Source: Oribacterium sp. P6A1
Lineage (GTDB): Bacteria > Bacillota > Clostridia > Lachnospirales > Lachnospiraceae
Reading direction: 5' to 3'
Assembly: GCF_000702885.1 (NCBI RefSeq)
Contig: NZ_JNKO01000008.1
Span: 1-64,000, forward strand
Length of the DNA: 64,000 bases
The translations under genes were made by a program, and so were the position numbers. Under the pieces are notes generated by a model, which made no database searches, was not told where the DNA came from, and worked only from the letters and a program-made list of their open reading frames with translations. Shown here piece by piece: positions 18,695 to 60,891 of this stretch (positions are counted from its first letter, which is position 1; every line of letters begins with the position of its first letter).

Positions 18695-18880
18695 CGATAA
18701 ACGCTTTGTTTTCATAGGAGTACCTGCCTGCCGAAGGAGTAAAACTCTCAGGAGTCTGTAACAGACGGAGACTAATAACGGAGTGAACTCTGGAGAAGCT
18801 CTTTAATGAGTGCCGAAGGTGCAAAGGTCCGGGATAAGAAATTATCCTTCCCCAATCTCTCAGGCAAAAGGACAGAGAAA
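18695..18880 (+). promoter_or_regulatory. Tandem glycine riboswitch
   Basis: Two aptamers are visible. The first contains CTGCCGAAGGAGTAA and ACTCTCAGG (about 18727-18752). The second contains TCTGGAGA, GTGCCGAAGGTGCAAA, and the hallmark ATCTCTCAGGCAAAAGGAC (about 18790-18873). These are the conserved core sequences of the glycine riboswitch class (gcvT motif). It lies before an AGCS glycine/alanine symporter. In that setting the tandem riboswitch usually controls the transporter by glycine level; whether it acts as an on or an off switch here cannot be decided from sequence. Confidence 0.93.
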
Positions 18881-18941
18881 ATATTGCATTAGATATCATG
18901 ATTACATATCTATGGGTACTTTCAGGTACCTCTTTATTTTG

Positions 18942-53753: not shown

Positions 53754-53897
53754 TTACCATGCAGCTAATTTAGTTCCGTTCTCTTCTTCCGTCTGAACAG
53801 GAGCTTCAAATACCGCTTTGCTGCTGTCCGGAATGGTGTTTTTAATTATGATGCCAAGCGCAAGTATGAGACATAGTATTTTCTATATTCTTTTCAT
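53754..53897 (-). pseudogene. Small membrane/secreted protein gene with an internal amber codon
   Basis: A 47-codon frame starts with ATG right after the stop of the gene at 53898 (TAAATG), reads MKRI, meets TAG at codon 5 (bases 53883-53885), and continues as KILCLILALGIIIK, then a polar tail ending KLAAW. A hydrophobic segment after a basic start is what a signal or membrane anchor would look like, so the frame was probably a gene and is now interrupted by one base change. No alternative start codon is present after the TAG. Readthrough or a sequencing error are other explanations. Confidence 0.5.
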
Positions 53898-54086
53898 TTA
53901 CGCTCTGTTTCCTTTATTATTATCTTCTTTACCAAGAATGCTGATGGCTGTTATCACTATTCCTCCGGCCATAACAGCAAGCCAGCTATGACTCCAGTTG
54001 CCTTCAATATAACTCCAGATAAACATGATAAATACGGAGATCATAGCTATGACGGGTATAAGTTTTTTCGCAGTATGTATATTCAT
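53898..54086 (-). CDS. Small two-helix membrane protein
   Basis: This protein of 62 residues has two membrane helices (about 9-25 and 34-51) and a charged tail KEDNNKGNRA. The ATG at 54086 is preferred because AAAGG is 8 bases upstream; an ATG 6 bases earlier is too close to that site. It lies downstream of the lipoprotein at 54145. The size and placement after leader-peptide genes would suit an accessory or immunity protein, which is speculation. No family recognised. Confidence 0.55.
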   Translation of the reverse strand: MNIHTAKKLIPVIAMISVFIMFIWSYIEGNWSHSWLAVMAGGIVITAISILGKEDNNKGNRA

Positions 54087-54144
54087 GGTCATATCCTTTC
54101 TTAGATCTTTTGATAATCAGCTGTTTTTCATTTATGGATTTATT

Positions 54145-55266
54145 TTACTTTTCAGCTGTGAGTTTTGTGATAAATACACCGTCATAGTATACGGATACTT
54201 CATCACCTGCCTGAACACCCTTTGTATCATAAACTGTATAGGACATATACAAACGTTTTGTGTCTCCGCCGACAATCTCAGGCTCTCTCGTCTGCTCGAA
54301 TACAAAAGGATTTATGTAAACATCCTTTTCTTTTTCTATTACAAATTTAGTCTGATCAAAGGTCTTATCAGATCCCGTGTTGTTGTAGAGTTCAACTCCG
54401 AAATTCGGAGCACTTTCATTACAGCTTAGTTTGAGCTTTCGGCATTCAACTCCGTCAGAAGTTATAAACAGTCCGCCCTTTAGTTCCTTCACATCTTCGG
54501 ATGAATCTTTTACTTCAAGAGTAACAGGATATTTCTTTTCGCCTTCCTTTGCCTGCTCCATAATCATTTTTGTGTAGGCTTCTAAATCTATGTTGTTAAA
54601 GAAATTCTCCAGATCCTCAGTGTTATTCTCATCAAGATTTTCGATCTCCGCCATCATACTGCTCTCGGTTTTTTCAAACATAGGCTTTGCCACTTTCATG
54701 ACCTCGTCTATATCCATTTCCTTATCATCTGTGTACAAGGAGTAGATCATGCTTCCGTTAAACCAAAGAACATTACTTATATGATCATTGATGTTCTGAC
54801 GTGACTTTGTCTCTACTGTATTTGAAACTTCCTCGTTCTCCACATTCCAGTCATAGAAAAGACCTGAAATATCCTCGAATTCCGTTCCGGGTTTCATTCT
54901 GGCACAGTACTTCTTACCATCAAGAGTGAAGTTCATTTCAGAAAGCTTATCTGATTCCATGATTCCATAGGACACCTCTTCTGCTCCTTCCGGAACTATG
55001 AACTCTTCACCGGTGAGATTCTTTACCTCTTCAGGAGATACATCATATTTCCATGGATTTGCCATTCCGGAAGCTGCAGCCTCTGCTGTCTCATGTTCGG
55101 TTTGTTCTGCTGTTGTTTCAGGTGTTGTTTCAGGTGCTTTTGTTTCAGCAGCGGTTGTTTCCTTTATGGTTTCTGCCTTAGTGGTTTCTTCCTTGTTTCC
55201 TCCTCCGCATCCCATCAGGGCCACTGCCAGACCAAAACTTATAAGTACCATGCCGTATTTTTTCAT
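54145..55266 (-). CDS. Lipoprotein of unknown function in the leader-peptide locus
   Basis: This 373-residue protein has a lipobox ALMGC (Cys20), a Thr/Glu/Ala-rich linker (about 24-66, repeated TTAE/PETT units) and a globular part (about 70-373) that I do not recognise. The C-terminal region (about 250-373) looks like an Ig-like beta sandwich. The gene lies 123 bases after the zinc-ribbon leader protein gene on the same strand, with a small ATCTCT/AGAGAT hairpin (55362-55378) between, and may belong to the same regulon. Confidence 0.7.
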   Translation of the reverse strand: MKKYGMVLISFGLAVALMGCGGGNKEETTKAETIKETTAAETKAPETTPETTAEQTEHETAEAAASGMANPWKYDVSPEEVKNLTGEEFIVPEGAEEVSYGIMESDKLSEMNFTLDGKKYCARMKPGTEFEDISGLFYDWNVENEEVSNTVETKSRQNINDHISNVLWFNGSMIYSLYTDDKEMDIDEVMKVAKPMFEKTESSMMAEIENLDENNTEDLENFFNNIDLEAYTKMIMEQAKEGEKKYPVTLEVKDSSEDVKELKGGLFITSDGVECRKLKLSCNESAPNFGVELYNNTGSDKTFDQTKFVIEKEKDVYINPFVFEQTREPEIVGGDTKRLYMSYTVYDTKGVQAGDEVSVYYDGVFITKLTAEK

Positions 55267-55389
55267 ACTGATCTCCTCATCTGTAACCGTCTTTTCAGGT
55301 CCTTCATCTTTGACATACGGATATAAAATCCAATTGACTTTATACCCGCATGTTTTGGTTTATCTCTGACTTAGAGATGATTCTTATCC

Positions 55390-55725
55390 CTATTTCTTGG
55401 GAATGTCCTTCCACCACACAGGATAAACAATTCCCTGTGTCTGCCCTGCCTGTTCAAGGATCTTAATCATGGCGATGTAGTCTGCGTCAGAACAGAACTG
55501 GTCAATCTTACATGCATCACAGGTCCAGAAATTGTCACCATATGGATTGTCAACCGCCTTCATTGGTTTTCCGCATTCAGGACAGGTTGCCTCATTAGGA
55601 CCTCCAAGTCCGCCAGTAACATTTGCCATATCCTCATCGGATAATGCAGTGTTCATCTTTTTGCCAAGCTTTTCAACCTGCTCCTTGGAATTTCTGATAA
55701 ACTGAGTGTACTTGTTCTCGTTCAT
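55390..55725 (-). CDS. Double-glycine leader protein with zinc-ribbon core
   Basis: This 111-residue protein has an N-terminal leader (1-39) that ends ALSDEDMANVTGG, a double-glycine cleavage signal of the bacteriocin/C39 type. The part after the leader contains Cys48-x2-Cys51 and Cys69-x2-Cys72 (CPEC, CDAC), a rubredoxin-like zinc ribbon, plus Cys78; it ends WWKDIPKK. The leader aligns residue for residue with that of the protein at 55784 (LSDExxxNxTGGL). Cut after GG39 it would release about 72 residues. A folded zinc ribbon is unlike ordinary bacteriocins. GAGGAG lies before the ATG. Probable substrate of the NHLP-type exporter encoded 2 kb upstream. Confidence 0.8.
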   Translation of the reverse strand: MNENKYTQFIRNSKEQVEKLGKKMNTALSDEDMANVTGGLGGPNEATCPECGKPMKAVDNPYGDNFWTCDACKIDQFCSDADYIAMIKILEQAGQTQGIVYPVWWKDIPKK

Positions 55726-55750
55726 TTTTTCTCCTCTCTTAAATTTACTG

Positions 55751-55790
55751 GTTTCATTTGGTTTTATTTGTTTTTATTTGTTTTTAATCG
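55751..55790. repeat. Four 10-bp tandem repeats between the two leader-protein genes
   Basis: Four consecutive units GTTTCATTTG, GTTTTATTTG, TTTTTATTTG and TTTTTAATCG differ by one to three bases. They begin near the ribosome site of the downstream gene and end across the stop codon (55784-55786) of the upstream one. Confidence 0.6.
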
Positions 55791-56053
55791 TTTCCCAAAA
55801 CATGCATTGTCCAGCCCCCGGCTATGGCATACAGGCCTACCTTCGTGCCCTCCGGAACTACAGTATCAGTCCGGTTTGTGGCAAAGAGCATAGCTCCGTC
55901 ATCAAAAAGAACCTGATACTGTCTTCCTCCAAGATGAGTGACTACCGATCCCAAGGCATCAAATTCCGGTAATTTATGCTCTGATGCAGAAAGACCGCCG
56001 GTAGCGTTCAGCAGCATTTCATCCGAAAGCTTAAAATTCTTATTATCTGCCAT
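55784..56053 (-). CDS. Double-glycine leader protein with small beta-rich core
   Basis: This 89-residue protein has a leader (1-20) ending KLSDEMLLNATGG, the same LSDExxxNxTGGL motif as the neighbour at 55390. The remaining 69 residues look like a small beta barrel (GRQYQVLFDDGAMLFATN, then VGLYAIAGGWTMHVL) and lack cysteines. The ATG at 56053 has AAGGAG 7 bases upstream; the frame is open 20 codons further but without a ribosome site. First gene after a promoter with two direct repeats of LytTR type. No known bacteriocin family fits the core. Confidence 0.75.
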   Translation of the reverse strand: MADNKNFKLSDEMLLNATGGLSASEHKLPEFDALGSVVTHLGGRQYQVLFDDGAMLFATNRTDTVVPEGTKVGLYAIAGGWTMHVLGND

Positions 56054-56167
56054 ACCACTACTCCTTCTTCTCTTAAAAGCTTTTGCCTTTATCGGCACCG
56101 CTATGTTTTTCATTCCCCGGAAACCTTAACTTTATCTCTGTCAACATTTCCTTTTCTTTATGTCTCG

Positions 56168-56196
56168 ACTATAACAAGGCTATCCACCTTCTACAA
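56168..56196 (-). promoter_or_regulatory. Promoter of the leader-protein genes
   Basis: Minus strand: -35 TTGTAG (56191-56196), 17-base spacer, -10 TATAGT (56168-56173), 115 bases before the ATG at 56053. The weak -35 suits a promoter that needs an activator; two direct repeats lie directly upstream. Confidence 0.7.
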
Positions 56197-56198
56197 TG

Positions 56199-56237
56199 TT
56201 TCATGTCTATTCGGTCTTTTTTCATGTCTGATCGGTC
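56199..56237 (-). promoter_or_regulatory. Paired direct repeats, probable LytTR binding site
   Basis: On the minus strand GACCGAATAGACATGAAA (56199-56216) and GACCGATCAGACATGAAA (56220-56237) agree at 16 of 18 bases and are 21 bp apart, two helical turns. The nearer repeat ends 2 bases before the -35 element. LytTR-domain regulators bind such paired direct repeats next to the -35 of target promoters. The LytTR gene is the second gene upstream. Confidence 0.78.
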
Positions 56238-56267
56238 ATTCCGGCAGTTTAGGATTATTCTTTTCCG

Positions 56268-56699
56268 TTAGCTGACATTATCTTTATTCATAAATAATTC
56301 TTTCAGCTCTTCATTCATTTTTCTGATCTGCTTCTTCCAGAGCATGTACTGGACAAGCCATATCATCCCATAGACCAGGGTGAAAATGATTAGAACTGCA
56401 AAAAGTGTATTGTCGGGGAACCATCCCAGTATGGAGCTTATGATAAGCATGGTTATAAAAGTCACGAAATAATGTGTAAAGGTTGCTTTATCAAGAGACC
56501 ACTCTTCGAAATCATAGACAACGGAACCTCCATATCCTACGATTCCCAGAATTCCCGAACCCAATAGATGCATTACAAGAAATGATTTATTTACAGTACT
56601 TCCGTCAGGTGTGCAGACCACATACATAAATATGCCTACCAGGAGTTCCAGGGTGAAACCGAGTAAAATTTTCCACATGATCTTATGTTTTAAATCCAT
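56268..56699 (-). CDS. DUF3021 membrane protein, partner of the LytTR regulator
   Basis: This 143-residue protein has four membrane helices (about 8-28, 38-60, 73-92 and 97-118) and a charged cytoplasmic tail. DUF3021 proteins are usually encoded right after a LytTR DNA-binding protein and are thought to control it from the membrane. Here the start lies 2 bases beyond the LytTR stop, and the ribosome site AAAGGAG is inside that gene's end, so translation is coupled. It lies just upstream of the leader-protein promoter. Confidence 0.85.
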   Translation of the reverse strand: MDLKHKIMWKILLGFTLELLVGIFMYVVCTPDGSTVNKSFLVMHLLGSGILGIVGYGGSVVYDFEEWSLDKATFTHYFVTFITMLIISSILGWFPDNTLFAVLIIFTLVYGMIWLVQYMLWKKQIRKMNEELKELFMNKDNVS

Positions 56700-56701
56700 G
56701 G

Positions 56702-57169
56702 TTACTCCTTTCTCTGAAGAGCCAGTTTTACATCCTTAACTCTTCTTCTCGCGACCCAGGTGCTTTCACCGTTAACAAGTTCAACCATAATTGTTCCAGC
56801 GGCAGAAAAATCAAAACTCTTTACCATCTGAAGGTTAAGTATCTCAGACTGTGAGATACGTACGAACCTGCCATGATCAAGCATCTCCTCAAGTTCTGTC
56901 AATGTCTTTTTAATTTCATAGACCCTTTTTCCGGTGGACACCATGACTTTTCTGTTGTTAATGAATATCCTTATCATCTGGCTTTGTGGAAGCATGACCT
57001 GGCTTTCTTTAAAAAACGCCGGTATCATGGGTATCTTCTTGCTGGCATAGGATTGGATCGCAGAAATGACACCCTCCACCTCCTCGGTGTGAGCATTATT
57101 CGTAATCAATACATTAAGTTTTTGACATGCCTTGTCTATCACAAGTTTGATATCAACCAAGTCGGACAT
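56702..57169 (-). CDS. LytTR-domain DNA-binding regulator
   Basis: This 155-residue protein has an N-terminal region (1-50) and a LytTR DNA-binding domain (about 55-155; the RVYEIKKTLTELEEML, then HGRFVRISQSEILNLQMVKSF segments are typical). It has no receiver domain, as usual for the DUF3021-linked type. The ATG at 57169 follows AAAGGTG; an ATG at 57193 has no site. It is expected to bind the paired repeats at 56199-56237 and activate the leader-protein genes; autoregulation is possible but no such repeats were seen before its own gene. Confidence 0.88.
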   Translation of the reverse strand: MSDLVDIKLVIDKACQKLNVLITNNAHTEEVEGVISAIQSYASKKIPMIPAFFKESQVMLPQSQMIRIFINNRKVMVSTGKRVYEIKKTLTELEEMLDHGRFVRISQSEILNLQMVKSFDFSAAGTIMVELVNGESTWVARRRVKDVKLALQRKE

Positions 57170-57209
57170 ATTATCACCTTTTGTTGTGGCCATACTAAAC
57201 CGGCCGTAA

Positions 57210-57653
57210 TCATGTTTCGGAGTATGTACTGCTATCTTTTGGGAGATTCTTTCTCAGGATGGTGTGATTGTACCCATCCTTACGCTCATAACACATTTCA
57301 TCCATAACCATCTTGGTCATATAGATTCCAAGCCCGCCTTTTTTTCTCTGTCTAAGAGGAATGCTTACATCGGGATCCTCCTTTTTTGTGGGATCATAGG
57401 GGACACCCTTATCTCTTATATCCAGCTGTACCAGAGTTTCTTCCGGAAAGCTTACAGAAACATAAGCATCTCCGGTTATTCCCTCATAGGCATATTGGGA
57501 GATATTAACAAGCATTTCTTCAAGTGCCAGATCAATTCTTTGCATAACATCAACCCTGCATCCATGTTCTTCCAACAAAGAATTAATAAATCTGATGGCA
57601 GACTCTATATTTTCGAGTTTAGCCTCGATTTTCAGTTCCTTTATTTTCTCCAT
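57210..57653 (-). CDS. RsbW/SpoIIAB-like anti-sigma-type ATPase
   Basis: This 147-residue single-domain GHKL ATPase (HATPase_c_2) has the N box IDLALEEMLVNISQYAY (about 42-58), the G1 region DIRDKGVPYDP (about 92-102) and the G2 region KGGLGIYMTKMVMDEM (about 119-134). Such proteins are kinases that bind sigma factors or other partners and phosphorylate STAS antagonists. The STAS gene lies just upstream, so they form a partner-switching pair. No sigma-factor or SpoIIE-type phosphatase gene is next to them. A copy of repeat A fills the gap before its start; no clear ribosome site is seen. Confidence 0.9.
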   Translation of the reverse strand: MEKIKELKIEAKLENIESAIRFINSLLEEHGCRVDVMQRIDLALEEMLVNISQYAYEGITGDAYVSVSFPEETLVQLDIRDKGVPYDPTKKEDPDVSIPLRQRKKGGLGIYMTKMVMDEMCYERKDGYNHTILRKNLPKDSSTYSET

Positions 57654-57672
57654 GGTTCATTAATCTATGATG

Positions 57673-57729
57673 TGAGTGTCAAAAACTGACATCGAATCCT
57701 TCCGTATAGAGCGTTCTTTCTTATGTCAT
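57673..57729 (-). repeat. Dispersed repeat A, copy 2 (inside the exporter operon)
   Basis: Minus-strand blocks ATGACATAAG, GAACGCTCT, AGGATTCGATGTCAGT, TTTTTGACACTCA. The first block supplies the TGA stop codon of the STAS gene (57726-57728); the repeat fills nearly the whole gap to the RsbW-like gene. Confidence 0.65.
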
Positions 57730-58025
57730 TCTATTTTTATAAAATCTTTAAAGCCGGTAATCTTCAGGATTTCCATGACTTCAGGGGAAACATTTCTGAG
57801 AACAGCGATGCCCCCCTTCTGTTCGGTATAGTCCTGCGCCCAGTAAAGGACTCTCAGTCCCGCTGATGCTATGTACACAAGACCATGAAGATCAAAGTAA
57901 ATATTCTTTACCTCATCAGGTATATCGTTTAATCTGTCGTCCAGATCCATGGCGCTCATGGTATCAAGCTTTCCATCTATTCCAAGGAACAGATCCTCTC
58001 CTTTGACTTCCCAGGTTATTTCCAT
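57726..58025 (-). CDS. STAS-domain anti-anti-sigma factor (RsbV/SpoIIAA-like)
   Basis: This 99-residue single STAS domain has the core pattern GKLDTMSAMDLDDRL and LVYIASAGLRVLYWAQ; the serine in ASAGLR is the usual phosphorylation site. Expected to be phosphorylated by the RsbW-like kinase downstream and, when unphosphorylated, to sequester it. The ATG at 58025 has AGGAGG at 7 bases and lies 13 bases after the exporter gene; a longer frame overlaps that gene. What the pair controls is unknown; its linkage to an exporter and leader proteins is the notable point. Confidence 0.92.
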   Translation of the reverse strand: MEITWEVKGEDLFLGIDGKLDTMSAMDLDDRLNDIPDEVKNIYFDLHGLVYIASAGLRVLYWAQDYTEQKGGIAVLRNVSPEVMEILKITGFKDFIKIE

Positions 58026-58038
58026 ATATGATCCTCCT

Positions 58039-60222
58039 TTATGCATCCACTCTTTGTCGTTCCACAAGACTTGCAAAAAAGCCATTATGTTTCATGAGTT
58101 CATCGTAAGTTCCATCCTCTACGATATGACCGCCGTCCAGTACCAGTATCCTGTCGCACTGTTTTATGGTGGACAGTCTGTGTGCAATCACTATTCTTGT
58201 GCAGTCCATCTCACTAAGAGCATCTGAAACCTTTTTTTGTGTTATGTTGTCAAGGGCCGAGGTGGCCTCATCAAATATCAGAAGTTTTGGCTTCGGTGCC
58301 ACGGCTCTTGCTATCATAAGCCTCTGTTTCTGTCCTCCTGATATTCCGCCGCTTCCTTCCGAAATAAGTGTATTCATCCCCATAGGCATCTGTTTTATAT
58401 CTTCATCGATTCCGGCTATCCTTGCCGCCTCCCAGGCATCTTTAAGGGTAAGATGTGGCGCGGCGATAACTATGTTGGAAAAGATATCTCCCTGAAAAAG
58501 CTTTCCGTTTTGTGTAACAACACCTATATTTTTCCGGAGAGACCGAAGATCCAAAGCGTTAATGTCTTTTCCGTCATAAAAGATTCCTCCTTTTGTGGGC
58601 TTCTCAAAGCCAAGGAGCAGTCTTACAAGAGTTGACTTTCCGCAGCCGGTTTTTCCGACTATGGCTACATACTGTCCCGGAGTTATCCTGAGGGACAGAT
58701 TATCTATGATGATCTGTGAATTCTTTTTGTACCTGAATGTCAGATTGATGAGTTCTATGTTGCCTGAGATTCCGGTCAATGTTTCTTTATTTTCCGATAT
58801 TTCAGGTTCTGCTTTCAGTATGGGCTCTGCCATCTCAAAGGTGGGTTTGACATTGGCAGCAGTCAGAGCCATGCCAAAGAGTGACATAAAGGCCCCTGAG
58901 ACCATGCCGTAGGCTGTATTAAAAGCTATGTACTCCGCAGTTGAAACATGAGTCACGATGGCCTGATTGTACATCACTATGGTACCGATAATGGATATGG
59001 CGGAGCTTATGACCGAATTCATCTTTATAAGCATGGGGGGATCGTATCTCAGCTTTACTACCTTTGCATATAGATCACCCCACCTTGCGAAAGCTCTTTT
59101 TTCGGCTCCCGTAAGCTTTATCTTTTGAATTCCCGAAATCACCGCATAGCTCATACCGCTTTCTTTTGATCCGAGAAGCATCTGCTTTTTGGTGAGCTTC
59201 ATCTGAAGAAATGAGGATATTACCGTAAACCCCACCGTTATTGCTATGATGATGAGAGCCGGAATAACAAGCCCCGGAGCATAAGCAAAAATCTGTGTAA
59301 TGTACACCAGGGAAAAAACGGATGTAAGTCCTGTGTTAAGTGCAACATTAACAAGAGTGGAGCACAGGGAATTCACATAGGATGAACGGGAGGAAAGCTC
59401 TCCCGAACTGTAGTCCTTGAAAAAGCCGGCAGGAAGAGACATTATCCTCATCATGGTGGCAGCCTCTACCGATATGCTCATTTTCGTATCTATCCTTTGG
59501 GAAATAAGGTTTTTTGCCGCACTCAGCATAAGAGCGCCCCAGGATGTACATAAGAGAAACATGGCAGTCACTATAAGAAGGGATACCTCACCCTCAGCTA
59601 TCACATCCCTGAAGAGAAAAAGATTTATCCTGGGTGTCAGCATGGAAACCAGTATCACCACCAGCGTCGCAAGAGTGATCAGTACGTAATCAGAAGGCTC
59701 AATAATATGCAGGATGTATGAAAAAAGATCAGCTATCCCCAATTTCTTAACAGGAAAAGGCCTATAGAAAGAAAATGCTTCTCCCGTAAAGTCAGTTTCA
59801 TTTTTTCCGGTAACTCTCGTATATTTACCCGAAATATCATCAAAGAATCTGTAACCCGTAAGTCCGTAGGGAAGAAGGGCAACGGGAGCCCCGTCAGGTT
59901 TCCGGAAGCCTATCATGGCTCCAAAGGCATCATTTCTAAAGCCCGGTGTGAGCTTGACTCTTCTGTACATGATACCTGAAGGGTGAAGGACATAATCAAG
60001 CTTTTCTTCTATAGTCACTATCTTCTTCGGAATATCGGTCTTTCTGACATGATAGTACCTGAGTATCTCTTCGATGGCATTCTTAGCCTTTTCACCCGCA
60101 TCCATGCCGGAGTCAAGAAAGGTTTCTCCTGTTACTGCACCGGCGATCTTTCTGAAGGTGTTACTAAGAGCCTGTTCATCATTCTGTTTTCGAAGTTTAA
60201 TCTGATTATCAAACCAACCCAT
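58039..60222 (-). CDS. NHLP-type bacteriocin export ABC transporter, permease/ATPase subunit
   Basis: This 727-residue protein has a characteristic N-terminus (MGWFDNQIKLRKQNDEQAL, then KNAIEEILRYYHVRK) of the nitrile-hydratase-leader-peptide export family without a C39 peptidase. An ABC membrane domain (about 170-460, six helices) and an ABC ATPase (about 480-720) follow: Walker A GKTGCGKST, signature SGGISGGQKQR, Walker B LLIFDEAT, H-loop IAHRLST. Normally it pairs with a second ABC subunit that carries the C39 protease, and with an HlyD-type adaptor. Here only a remnant of the former precedes it (3-base gap) and no adaptor gene is present. The protein itself looks intact. Confidence 0.93.
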   Translation of the reverse strand: MGWFDNQIKLRKQNDEQALSNTFRKIAGAVTGETFLDSGMDAGEKAKNAIEEILRYYHVRKTDIPKKIVTIEEKLDYVLHPSGIMYRRVKLTPGFRNDAFGAMIGFRKPDGAPVALLPYGLTGYRFFDDISGKYTRVTGKNETDFTGEAFSFYRPFPVKKLGIADLFSYILHIIEPSDYVLITLATLVVILVSMLTPRINLFLFRDVIAEGEVSLLIVTAMFLLCTSWGALMLSAAKNLISQRIDTKMSISVEAATMMRIMSLPAGFFKDYSSGELSSRSSYVNSLCSTLVNVALNTGLTSVFSLVYITQIFAYAPGLVIPALIIIAITVGFTVISSFLQMKLTKKQMLLGSKESGMSYAVISGIQKIKLTGAEKRAFARWGDLYAKVVKLRYDPPMLIKMNSVISSAISIIGTIVMYNQAIVTHVSTAEYIAFNTAYGMVSGAFMSLFGMALTAANVKPTFEMAEPILKAEPEISENKETLTGISGNIELINLTFRYKKNSQIIIDNLSLRITPGQYVAIVGKTGCGKSTLVRLLLGFEKPTKGGIFYDGKDINALDLRSLRKNIGVVTQNGKLFQGDIFSNIVIAAPHLTLKDAWEAARIAGIDEDIKQMPMGMNTLISEGSGGISGGQKQRLMIARAVAPKPKLLIFDEATSALDNITQKKVSDALSEMDCTRIVIAHRLSTIKQCDRILVLDGGHIVEDGTYDELMKHNGFFASLVERQRVDA

Positions 60223-60225
60223 AGT

Positions 60226-60537
60226 TTACTCGCTTTGAACCAATTCCTTGTAGTAACCGCCCTTTTGATAGAGCTCCTCATGAGTTCCCCTGTCCACTAC
60301 TTCTCCGTGTTTCAGAACTATGATCTCATCACAGTCTCTGATGGTTGAAAGTCTGTGGGCAATGACTATACAGGTTATTCCTCTTTCTTTGATGGCATTT
60401 ACCACATCATACTCTGTTCTTGCATCAAGAGCAGAAGTTGCCTCATCAAGTATGACTATAGTGGGATCCTGTGCCAGAACCCGGGCTATCTCCATCCTCT
60501 GTCTCTGTCCTCCGGAATAGTCTTTTCCGCCTTCCAA
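60226..60537 (-). pseudogene. 3' remnant of the NHLP exporter peptidase/ATPase subunit
   Basis: About 103 residues match the end of an ABC ATPase: signature [15 protein letters not shown], Walker [14 protein letters not shown]-loop [10 protein letters not shown] and the tail YYKELVQSE. The Walker A, membrane domain and expected N-terminal C39 leader peptidase (some 600 residues) are missing. The similarity begins abruptly at EGGKDYSGG; before it the frame continues into unrelated codons that follow the stop of the gene at 60571. Only a TTG start is available. It is the broken companion of the intact subunit at 58039. Confidence 0.85.
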
Positions 60538-60570: not shown

Positions 60571-60891
60571 TTAAGTTGCTTTAACACTTACTTTCTTTCC
60601 GGAGAATGAAATTCCAAATTTCAAAATATCCCGGATGCCTTCATTCTTCATTTCAGCATCATATCTCTTCTCATCAATCTGGGCTAATGCTTCATCCGCC
60701 AGTTCTGAAAGCGCCTCTCCACTCAGGTCCTTTTTCCACTTAAGCTCCATAATGATTCCGGGATATCTGTCTTCTCTCGGACTTAGGCTGATATCATACA
60801 TGCCATCTCCGGCTTCTCTGTTGGACTTGATTTTATACTGATTATCCATCAAAGCGATCAAACCAAGTACCAAGCCATGATATGACACCAA
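60571..60891 (-). pseudogene. C-terminal remnant of a PD-(D/E)XK nuclease-like protein (DUF1703)
   Basis: 106 residues correspond to the C-terminal domain of AAA-ATPase-like/PDDEXK_9 proteins that are multi-copy in gut Firmicutes. The nuclease-like motif is kept: Asp in GMYDISL and E-x-K in IMELKWKK. The AAA-like N-terminal part (several hundred residues) is absent and no ATG precedes it. Its stop TAA lies in the same frame as the exporter remnant 30 bases downstream, marking the junction of two unrelated genes. Confidence 0.8.

Follow-up and report, generated by a model that had tools for sequence, protein, structure and literature searches.

The gene cluster analyzed here lies at positions 53,754 to 60,537 of a 64,000-nucleotide stretch of Oribacterium sp. 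P6A1 DNA (contig NZ_JNKO01000008.1); the whole stretch is called the window. Two small proteins with double-glycine (GG) leaders, leader proteins A and B, are encoded beside genes of an NHLP-type ATP-binding cassette (ABC) exporter and a LytTR regulator with a DUF3021 membrane protein. The cluster is probably the recently disabled copy of a system that, in relatives, would export unmodified mini-domains through a peptidase-containing ABC transporter (PCAT) under LytTR/DUF3021 control. The gene content, the leader and the promoter sites are directly visible in the sequences, as is the truncation of the exporter in this assembly. The prefixes L, G and C mark the loci, genomes and contigs compared.

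A common leader on several core folds

Leader A (LSDEMLLNATGGL) and leader B (LSDEDMANVTGGL) are both exact matches to LSDExxxNxTGGL, the common motif reported in the preliminary description of this cluster. In a loose form, the pattern was found only in A and B among the 234 open reading frames (ORFs) of 45-140 amino acids in the window. The expectation from shuffled ORFs was 0.08 matches for the loose and 0.000 for the strict pattern. From profile searches and inspection of the loci, 32 leader proteins were collected and aligned; membership was partly chosen by the leader motif. In this set, N(-15) is present in 32, L(-12) in 30, D(-10) in 31 and GG in 32, and a hydrophobic residue (M, L, V or F) stands at position -7 in all 32. 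The leaders thus agree with the L(-12), hydrophobic(-7) and GG pattern of PCAT substrates. These residues are conserved also in the orphan leader genes of the window's genome. The one near-constant leader is carried by three core groups, which are OB, SH3/chromo-like and zinc-ribbon-like.

Core A is cysteine-free and beta-rich, as had been described. Its AlphaFold2 model consists of a low-confidence leader and a five-strand barrel core with block means of the predicted local distance difference test (pLDDT) of 86-91 (residues 31-80). In the PDB, this fold is matched best by OB domains, namely those of proteasomal ATPases, eIF1A and IF1, with E values from 8.5e-4 and two at or below 0.001. Core A is confidently predicted to be a small, OB-like folded domain. 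Core B, with CxxC...CxxC and a zinc-ribbon-like appearance, is moderately predicted to be a small folded domain (model mean pLDDT 71.5). In sequence-profile searches of the PDB, leader protein B gave nothing above noise, and for the leader-A set the matches, to Tudor, OB and PCAT1-substrate entries, were all weak. One member of the SH3/chromo-like group matches chromodomain Y-like 2 (E 2.7e-4). Weak Pfam matches among the 32 members are two to Spin/Ssty (best E 4.8e-4) and one to SipA (E 9.6e-4). The DUF3592 model is weakly matched by four of the 32, including the SH3-like L124 5253.

The OB core was also found, without a GG leader, inside the cluster lipoprotein of L019 and L032 (residues 218-278 in L019, i-E 8e-11). 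This lipoprotein has a lipobox-type start. The OB core was not found by profile match in the window's own lipoprotein. The presence of the core in a lipoprotein is the best hint that the cores act outside the cytoplasm, and it suggests that the OB core works outside the cell. The preliminary description had staked its proposal on two points. The first, conservation of the leader motif in homologues, holds. The second was that the cores should not regularly occur without a leader and an exporter nearby, and here the leaderless OB core and leader genes on exporter-less stretches count against it.

The reading of the leader proteins as precursors of ribosomally synthesized and post-translationally modified peptides (RiPPs) is disfavoured. 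A Pfam scan of 20 proteins, 18 of which come from leader-bearing loci, recognized no RiPP modification enzyme; it did not take in every ORF. The NHLP and Nif11 leader models TIGR03793 and TIGR03798 have no match in leaders A and B, and are absent from the 25 of 29 matched families shown for the 32 members at E up to 0.1.

Other leader types were seen in related genomes. L089, from the genome of L020 (G319), carries two Nif11-type leaders on SH3-like cores, which do not belong to the window's leader family. They pass TIGR03798 (33.1 and 32.6 against 32.3 bits), the SH3-like cores are weak matches (E 0.0036 and 0.0092), and the proteins adjoin a GG-leader zinc-ribbon-like protein. Similar core folds may be carried by another type of leader in L089. 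At L057 1001-2831 (G252, another genus of the family), a tandem array encodes five small Nif11-like GG-leader proteins, several with zinc-ribbon cores (CPxC...CxxC); four scanned proteins of the array are below the TIGR03798 cut-off.

Exporter, switch and promoter sites in relatives

In the Butyrivibrio loci L018, L019 and L032, the second of them from Butyrivibrio sp. INlla16, ABC2 is 80-82% identical to that of the window. These loci carry a divergent SpoIIE gene, a 160-amino-acid adaptor stub, ABC1, ABC2, STAS, LytTR, DUF3021, leader A and leader B. RsbW is present in L019 and L032, and none was seen in L018. The L029 locus resembles these three. L070, from the congener G309, contains the adaptor stub, ABC1, ABC2, two leader-A-like genes, LytTR, DUF3021, the lipoprotein and leader B. 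A full-length C39-type exporter stands beside leader genes in L018, L019, L032, L029 and L070, and the co-occurrence that the preliminary description had proposed to look for is thus found. The ABC1 proteins of L018, L019 and L029 score 896-919 bits against the TIGR03796 cut-off of 853.3. Peptidase_C39 was found in ABC1 of L019, the one tested with Pfam, and the motifs LECGA and HW.FNHF are kept in 4 of 4 (L018, L019, L029, L070). The adaptor stubs of L019 and L028 reach 19.6 and 34.8 bits against the TIGR03794 cut-off of 156.2.

RsbV, RsbW and RsbU form a partner switch, and switches with STAS alone are reportedly described as well (PMC8256260). A full RsbUVW-type set of STAS, HATPase_c_2 and SpoIIE genes is present in L019 and L032. 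The set differs from RsbUVW in adjoining an exporter, in having no phosphatase orthologue in the window's genome, and in being missing as a whole module from L070. Among the 20 loci L018-L035, L040 and L041, STAS adjoins the exporter in 12. SpoIIE does so in 7, of which 3 were recognized by Pfam and the other 4 through clustering with those 3. No STAS, RsbW or SpoIIE was found within the 20 kb of L070 seen, and the partner switch is optional because L070 is without all of it. Of the two layers of regulation proposed earlier, both are found in certain relatives, the STAS/RsbW/SpoIIE one being optional. In L021 (186-2159), L022 and L024, SpoIIE is fused to an RsbW-like HATPase (by Pfam in L021, by clustering otherwise), divergent from the exporter and beside STAS.

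Two further features of these genomes were noted. Membrane-type proteins of 281-285 amino acids with HExxH and no Pfam match lie within leader-gene clusters (L018 4186-5031 and L124 5836-6693). A second NHLM-type exporter stands beside a GG peptide of 55-57 amino acids with a very short core (...LKKV[ML]GGQ...) in L074, L075, L076, L077 and L079 (congeners G301, G304, G310, G309 and G307). Its setting is conserved, and by inspection of the sequence the neighbouring genes resemble those for IMP dehydrogenase and NAD synthase.

A direct repeat, ACCGAATAG-12 bp-ACCGAATAG, was found upstream of many leader operons and of the exporter. It occurs once in the 64-kb window, before leader A, and in none of 100 shuffles (0 expected). 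Sites were counted at up to 3 mismatches of 24, within 500 bp of exporter starts (the L029 start being estimated) and within 350 bp of leader genes. All 5 exporter starts examined have such a site in front, as do 14 of the 37 leader genes. Sixteen of the remaining 23 leader genes lie on the same strand behind a leader gene with a site, the OB lipoprotein or the exporter. Only 7 of 202 control ORFs have a site at up to 4 mismatches, all within the same clusters. They are the OB lipoprotein three times (L019 and L124, which are the same contig stretch, and L032), two small membrane proteins, a 231-amino-acid protein of L029 and an alternative leader-gene start. Small membrane proteins behind such a site are seen at L070 13927-14475 (DUF3592 by Pfam) and L029 9989-10507 (a look-alike). 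The repeat period is 21 in 26 of 28 pairs (13-39 allowed). Among 23 non-redundant sites, searched at offsets 7-14 and with spacers 16-18, 15 have their best -35 element at a distance of exactly 10 bp on the downstream side, combined with a 17-bp spacer. No site was found in 21 scanned loci with related exporters but without these leader genes, and the scan gave none in L080, L129, L130, L131 and L140.

Relatives have a site in front of the exporter operon, and L070 has one in front of the leader operon too, with the LytTR gene lying downstream on that strand. The window shows several marks of a LytTR Regulatory System (LRS), namely a receiver-less LytTR regulator with an adjacent DUF3021 gene, and 9-bp repeats with a spacer of about 12 bp at about 10 bp before the -35 element. 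Autoregulation is not among them, as no repeat was found before the regulator's own LRS operon in the window. From this co-occurrence, we infer that the window's LytTR protein binds the repeat.

The leader-A profile was found in 7 of 22 genomes. These are the window's own and the six whose ABC2 shares at least 66% identity with that of the window; the 15 genomes with an ABC2 at 43-57% gave no match. It was matched in 4 of 17 genomes of the genus and in 3 of 299 of a family sample drawn at nearly one genome per genus. The figures for leader B are 2 of 17 and 2 of 299, and one of these two family matches (G252) comes from proteins with a different, Nif11-like leader. The window's own genome carries six leader genes, spread over three contigs. 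Further leader-gene arrays stand behind leader B in the genomes of L019 and L032, and leader genes without an exporter on the stretches seen (6-20 kb) occur in G000, G303, G307 and G309. A leader-gene pair of G303 and the pair on contig C1 of the window's genome share 88.6% identity over 612 bases. The C7 promoter and leader start are 98.7% identical over 223 bases to a G303 copy, which then has a different core. Cassettes therefore appear to move and recombine. At L070 6283-6800 (G309), directly before the exporter, a scar of a deleted two-leader cassette retains one leader's start and another's end behind the common promoter. A phage or plasmid origin was also considered and set aside. With tblastn, leader A gave no match in phages and leader B none in plasmids, the two pairings covered, and viral contigs gave no exact match to the promoter pattern.

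The disrupted exporter of the window and alternative explanations

The minus-strand order in the window is ABC1 remnant, ABC2, STAS, RsbW-like, LytTR, DUF3021, leader A, leader B, lipoprotein and small membrane protein (Table 1). For leader A, the most likely start is 56053 (89 amino acids, MADNKN...) and not 56113, because homologues begin at the former position and an AAGGAG site lies in front of it. The interval end at 60537 is the torn start of the second exporter subunit. Elsewhere in the window, a glycine riboswitch aptamer was found at 18780-18885 (50.5 bits).

Table 1 Features of the cluster in window coordinates.
Feature	Position	Strand	Description and basis
Leader protein A	55784..56053	-	20-aa GG leader (MADNKNFKLSDEMLLNATGG) and predicted OB-like core
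Leader protein B	55390..55725	-	39-aa GG leader and zinc-ribbon-like core, C-terminal YPVWW conserved
LytTR-type direct repeat	56204..56236	-	ACCGATCAG-12 bp-ACCGAATAG; -35 TTGTAG 10 bp downstream, 17-bp spacer, -10 TATAGT
DUF3021 membrane protein (putative LytTR inhibitor)	56268..56699	-	Pfam 88 bits, cut-off 24.7
LytTR-family regulator without receiver domain	56702..57169	-	Pfam 69 bits, cut-off 22.6; an alternative earlier ATG gives start 57193
RsbW-like kinase (HATPase_c_2)	57210..57653	-	Pfam 80.1 bits, cut-off 27.4
STAS protein, anti-sigma-antagonist type	57726..58025	-	Over Pfam cut-off; start picked by homology
NHLM_micro_ABC2, permease/ATPase without peptidase, intact	58039..60222	-	TIGR03797 over cut-off, and motifs
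ABC1 C-terminal remnant (C39-peptidase exporter subunit), torn	60226..60534	-	TIGR03796 positions 611-710 of 710
PDDEXK_9 gene scrap, far side of breakpoint	60571..60891	-	Pfam 63.5 bits
Cluster lipoprotein	54145..55266	-	Residues 227-368 common (32%) with the OB-bearing lipoprotein of L019/L032
Small membrane protein, recurs near leader genes in relatives	53898..54092	-	Comparison of relatives' loci

The intact NHLP-type subunit and the STAS, RsbW-like, LytTR and DUF3021 genes of the preliminary description all exceed their cut-offs; the torn C39-bearing partner had gone unmentioned. ABC2 reaches 715.5 bits against the TIGR03797 cut-off of 709.4. The 103-codon frame preceding it matches only the end of TIGR03796, at 176.9 bits against a cut-off of 853.3. 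DNA homology to intact relatives begins at 60534, and 625 of 727 residues of ABC1 are missing (L019 numbering), including the C39 domain, the membrane part and Walker A. In the assembly of this genome (95 contigs, 97.57% complete), no TIGR03796 match over the cut-off was found by profile search. No C39 domain over the cut-off was found there (best 15.8 against 22 bits), no NHLM adaptor over its own cut-off (TIGR03794, best 22 against 156.2 bits) and, at E 0.001, no adaptor stub. The search for a SpoIIE phosphatase orthologue in the same genome gave a single match, 39% over residues 360-685 of 687 (the phosphatase part), which is not an orthologue. Candidates for an alternative exporter in the genome are half-ABC exporters only, matching from about TIGR03796 position 130 and without C39 over the cut-off. 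On contig C21 of the same genome (L009 1501-1986), the torn C-terminal half of another ABC exporter lies right after a gene that looks like lumazine synthase. This fragment was rejected as a closer ABC1 relative (41% over 134 residues).

Contig C1 has two leader genes at a site syntenic with the exporter of G309. It ends in a transposase-like ORF, so judged by inspection (L126 1-536), which cuts the second leader gene; that gene encodes 85 amino acids in G303. No exporter remnants were found at the C1 leader site at E below 0.1. The ABC1 remnant is 97% identical to L018 in amino acids at 82% DNA identity. In three-way comparisons of unique changes, LytTR has accumulated more amino-acid changes in the window (23, against 8 and 7), and no general decay is otherwise seen; pairwise ratios of nonsynonymous to synonymous change were of little use with silent sites near saturation. 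The window's copy probably does not export as it stands. It is best read as recently disabled, with the ABC1 peptidase half, the adaptor stub and the phosphatase gone while the cargo genes and the regulator persist. The export of small domains that was proposed for this cluster is therefore backed in relatives by conserved leaders, full C39 exporters and predicted folds, but not in the window, where ABC1 is truncated and no C39 or adaptor over the cut-off is found.

Several observations weigh against the interpretation as a recently lost PCAT route for mini-domains. The PCAT-substrate residue E(-8) is present in only 7 of 32 leaders, while E stands at -9 in 26. The zinc-ribbon fold match of core B is not significant (E 0.25). 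Its second CxxC, described earlier as part of the core and present in B itself, is not strict in six aligned homologues, since L019 and L032 keep one cysteine and L029 has C-x5-C. The SH3/chromo-like assignment of the third core group is weak. Seven of the 37 leader genes lack a promoter site nearby and do not follow any tabulated gene for a leader protein or exporter that has one. Two of these are in L029 and two in L140, where the sequence extends just 195 bases upstream, and L129, L130 and L131 have one apiece. The scan gave no site in the exporter locus L040. The exporter of the window's genome is incomplete, and the ABC1 remnant shows 2 amino-acid against 15 silent window-unique changes, a constraint like that of its relatives. 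An unassembled second exporter copy may exist, given the end of C1 at the G309 exporter site. The preference for wall or matrix binding over killing is drawn from analogy and from the lipoprotein fusion.

Killing is the function proposed by the first alternative, in which the cargo would be unmodified bacteriocins or bacteriocin-like proteins exported through a PCAT, and the cluster an ordinary bacteriocin locus with unusual cores. Known bacteriocin or RiPP loci include examples of GG leaders, of NHLP-type exporters and of LytTR-DUF3021 control (PMC2887384, PMC6193735), and cargo arrays with variable cores and cassette exchange between genomes would fit it as well. Other results speak against it. 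At E up to 0.1, neither leader A nor leader B hits a bacteriocin model, and three homologues (L029 1148, L019 20121 and L018 13589) hit none at E up to 0.01. Over the 32 members, the best bacteriocin-model E is 0.0033, from a single member, among the 25 of 29 families shown and with cut-offs not shown. Core A looks like a compact OB domain and not like an amphipathic peptide, and the lipoprotein of the cluster contains the OB core too. We regard this alternative as rather unlikely.

The second alternative takes the truncation as a fault of assembly or binning. The organism would then have a complete exporter, and the cluster would be as first described. The absence of relaxed constraint in the remnant means that the loss is recent or that the junction is an assembly fault. 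The draft consists of 95 contigs at less than full completeness, and the end of C1 coincides with the syntenic site of the G309 exporter. Against a fault, the breakpoint lies inside a 149-kb contig, and the junction has no other copy save for one 36-base match. The adaptor stub, a C39 domain over the cut-off and an orthologous SpoIIE are all missing from the assembly. A fault is unlikely on this balance.

A third alternative, that the GG proteins are now intracellular small binding proteins under LytTR, with the leader a relic or with ABC2 and another half-transporter exporting them uncut, would account for the six leader genes that persist without C39 over the cut-off in a genome with other half-exporters, but it is very unlikely in view of the leader residues conserved in the 32 aligned members, orphan genes included, and of the OB core fused into a lipoprotein.

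Proposed mechanism and comparison with known systems

The preferred interpretation, PCAT export of mini-domains that was recently lost in the window, leads to the following model for the intact loci. The LytTR-DUF3021 pair would sense a membrane signal, with the LytTR regulator held back by the DUF3021 membrane protein. Once released, LytTR would act on the 9-bp direct repeats and activate sigma-70-type promoters of the exporter operon and of the scattered leader-gene operons. The leaders would dock on the C39 domain of ABC1 and be cleaved after GG. The unmodified cargo (OB, SH3/chromo-like and zinc-ribbon) would cross the ABC1/ABC2 pair unfolded and fold outside, where it would most likely bind cell-wall or matrix partners. 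The STAS/RsbW/SpoIIE switch would add a second control by phosphorylation in some lineages. LytTR binding, DUF3021 inhibition, cleavage, export, the outside function and the completeness of the loss are all points that we infer. Wall or matrix binding is favoured over killing by analogy with the biofilm proteins EbfG (PMC4997328), with MAM (PMC12184118) and with the secreted chromo-like domains of bacteria (PMC5906684).

A broader picture is possible but doubtful. Butyrivibrio-like bacteria may have a "cartridge" secretome, in which one leader and one promoter are placed on exchangeable mini-domains across the chromosome, swapped between species and served by a dedicated PCAT pair as an extracellular binding kit; the window's lineage would have kept the cartridges and recently lost the exporter. 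If the interpretation is true, GG-leader export would be a general clostridial route for small folded domains, beyond bacteriocins, pheromones and RiPPs. The promoter code could then be used to list a genome's set of cargo genes, LytTR Regulatory Systems would gain a new type of target, and secreted SH3/chromo-like domains would become testable in Firmicutes. In that case, the labelling of NHLP-type exporters as bacteriocin or RiPP loci may misname such clusters.

The comparisons that follow draw on the cited sections of each paper. The likeness to NHLP/NHLM export (PMC2887384) is in ABC2, which is over the TIGR03797 cut-off, and in ABC1 of the relatives, which is over that of TIGR03796. The cluster differs in that the adaptor is only a stub that spans the first 47-56 of 421 positions, the matches shown include no NHLP or Nif11 leader model, no modification enzymes were recognized, and the peptidase half is lost in the window. 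With PCAT1-CtA and LahT-LahA (PMC6959990, PMC6363468), the system shares a C39 peptidase-ABC exporter and the L(-12)/hydrophobic(-7)/GG leader. It differs in having a two-subunit NHLM pair in place of a single PCAT, E at -9 and several fold classes on one leader. The CtA cargo is 66 residues long (PMC6959990, PMC6363468). As PCAT1 cargo is unstructured in the cavity (PMC6959990), the small folded domains of the preliminary description are better taken as domains that acquire their fold once exported.

EbfG1-4/PteB of Synechococcus (PMC4997328) and MAM of Faecalibacterium (PMC12184118) are known cases in which GG-leader proteins go with a C39 transporter; the cited sections do not call them bacteriocins, and their role is in the biofilm or envelope. 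No common core folds or LytTR regulon were noticed in the cited sections for these. Secreted bacterial chromo-like domains are small SH3-fold domains that have been proposed to bind wall or matrix peptides and are nearly absent from Firmicutes (PMC5906684). The domains here differ in being GG-leader proteins of a Butyrivibrio-like group, and their similarity is weak.

In the LytTR Regulatory Systems HdrRM and BrsRM, a LytTR regulator is paired with a membrane inhibitor (DUF3021 in several), and the targets include bacteriocin genes (PMC6193735). Their 9-bp repeats have mostly a 12-bp spacer, with a bias to 10 bp before the -35 element (PMC6193735). The window has the same receiver-less LytTR beside a membrane protein and the published repeat and -35 layout. 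The system here differs in that the sites stand before the exporter and cargo operons, and none was found before the regulator's own genes in the window.

The exporter type, the GG leaders, LytTR-DUF3021 control and non-bacteriocin GG cargo are thus each already known. The preliminary description knew of no described system with this combination. Its parts have been published, as EbfG, MAM and LytTR-DUF3021 control attest, but the combination was not found in a search of the open PMC literature. As far as the open literature shows, what is new here is the combination itself, in which one leader and one promoter are common to mini-domains of several folds.

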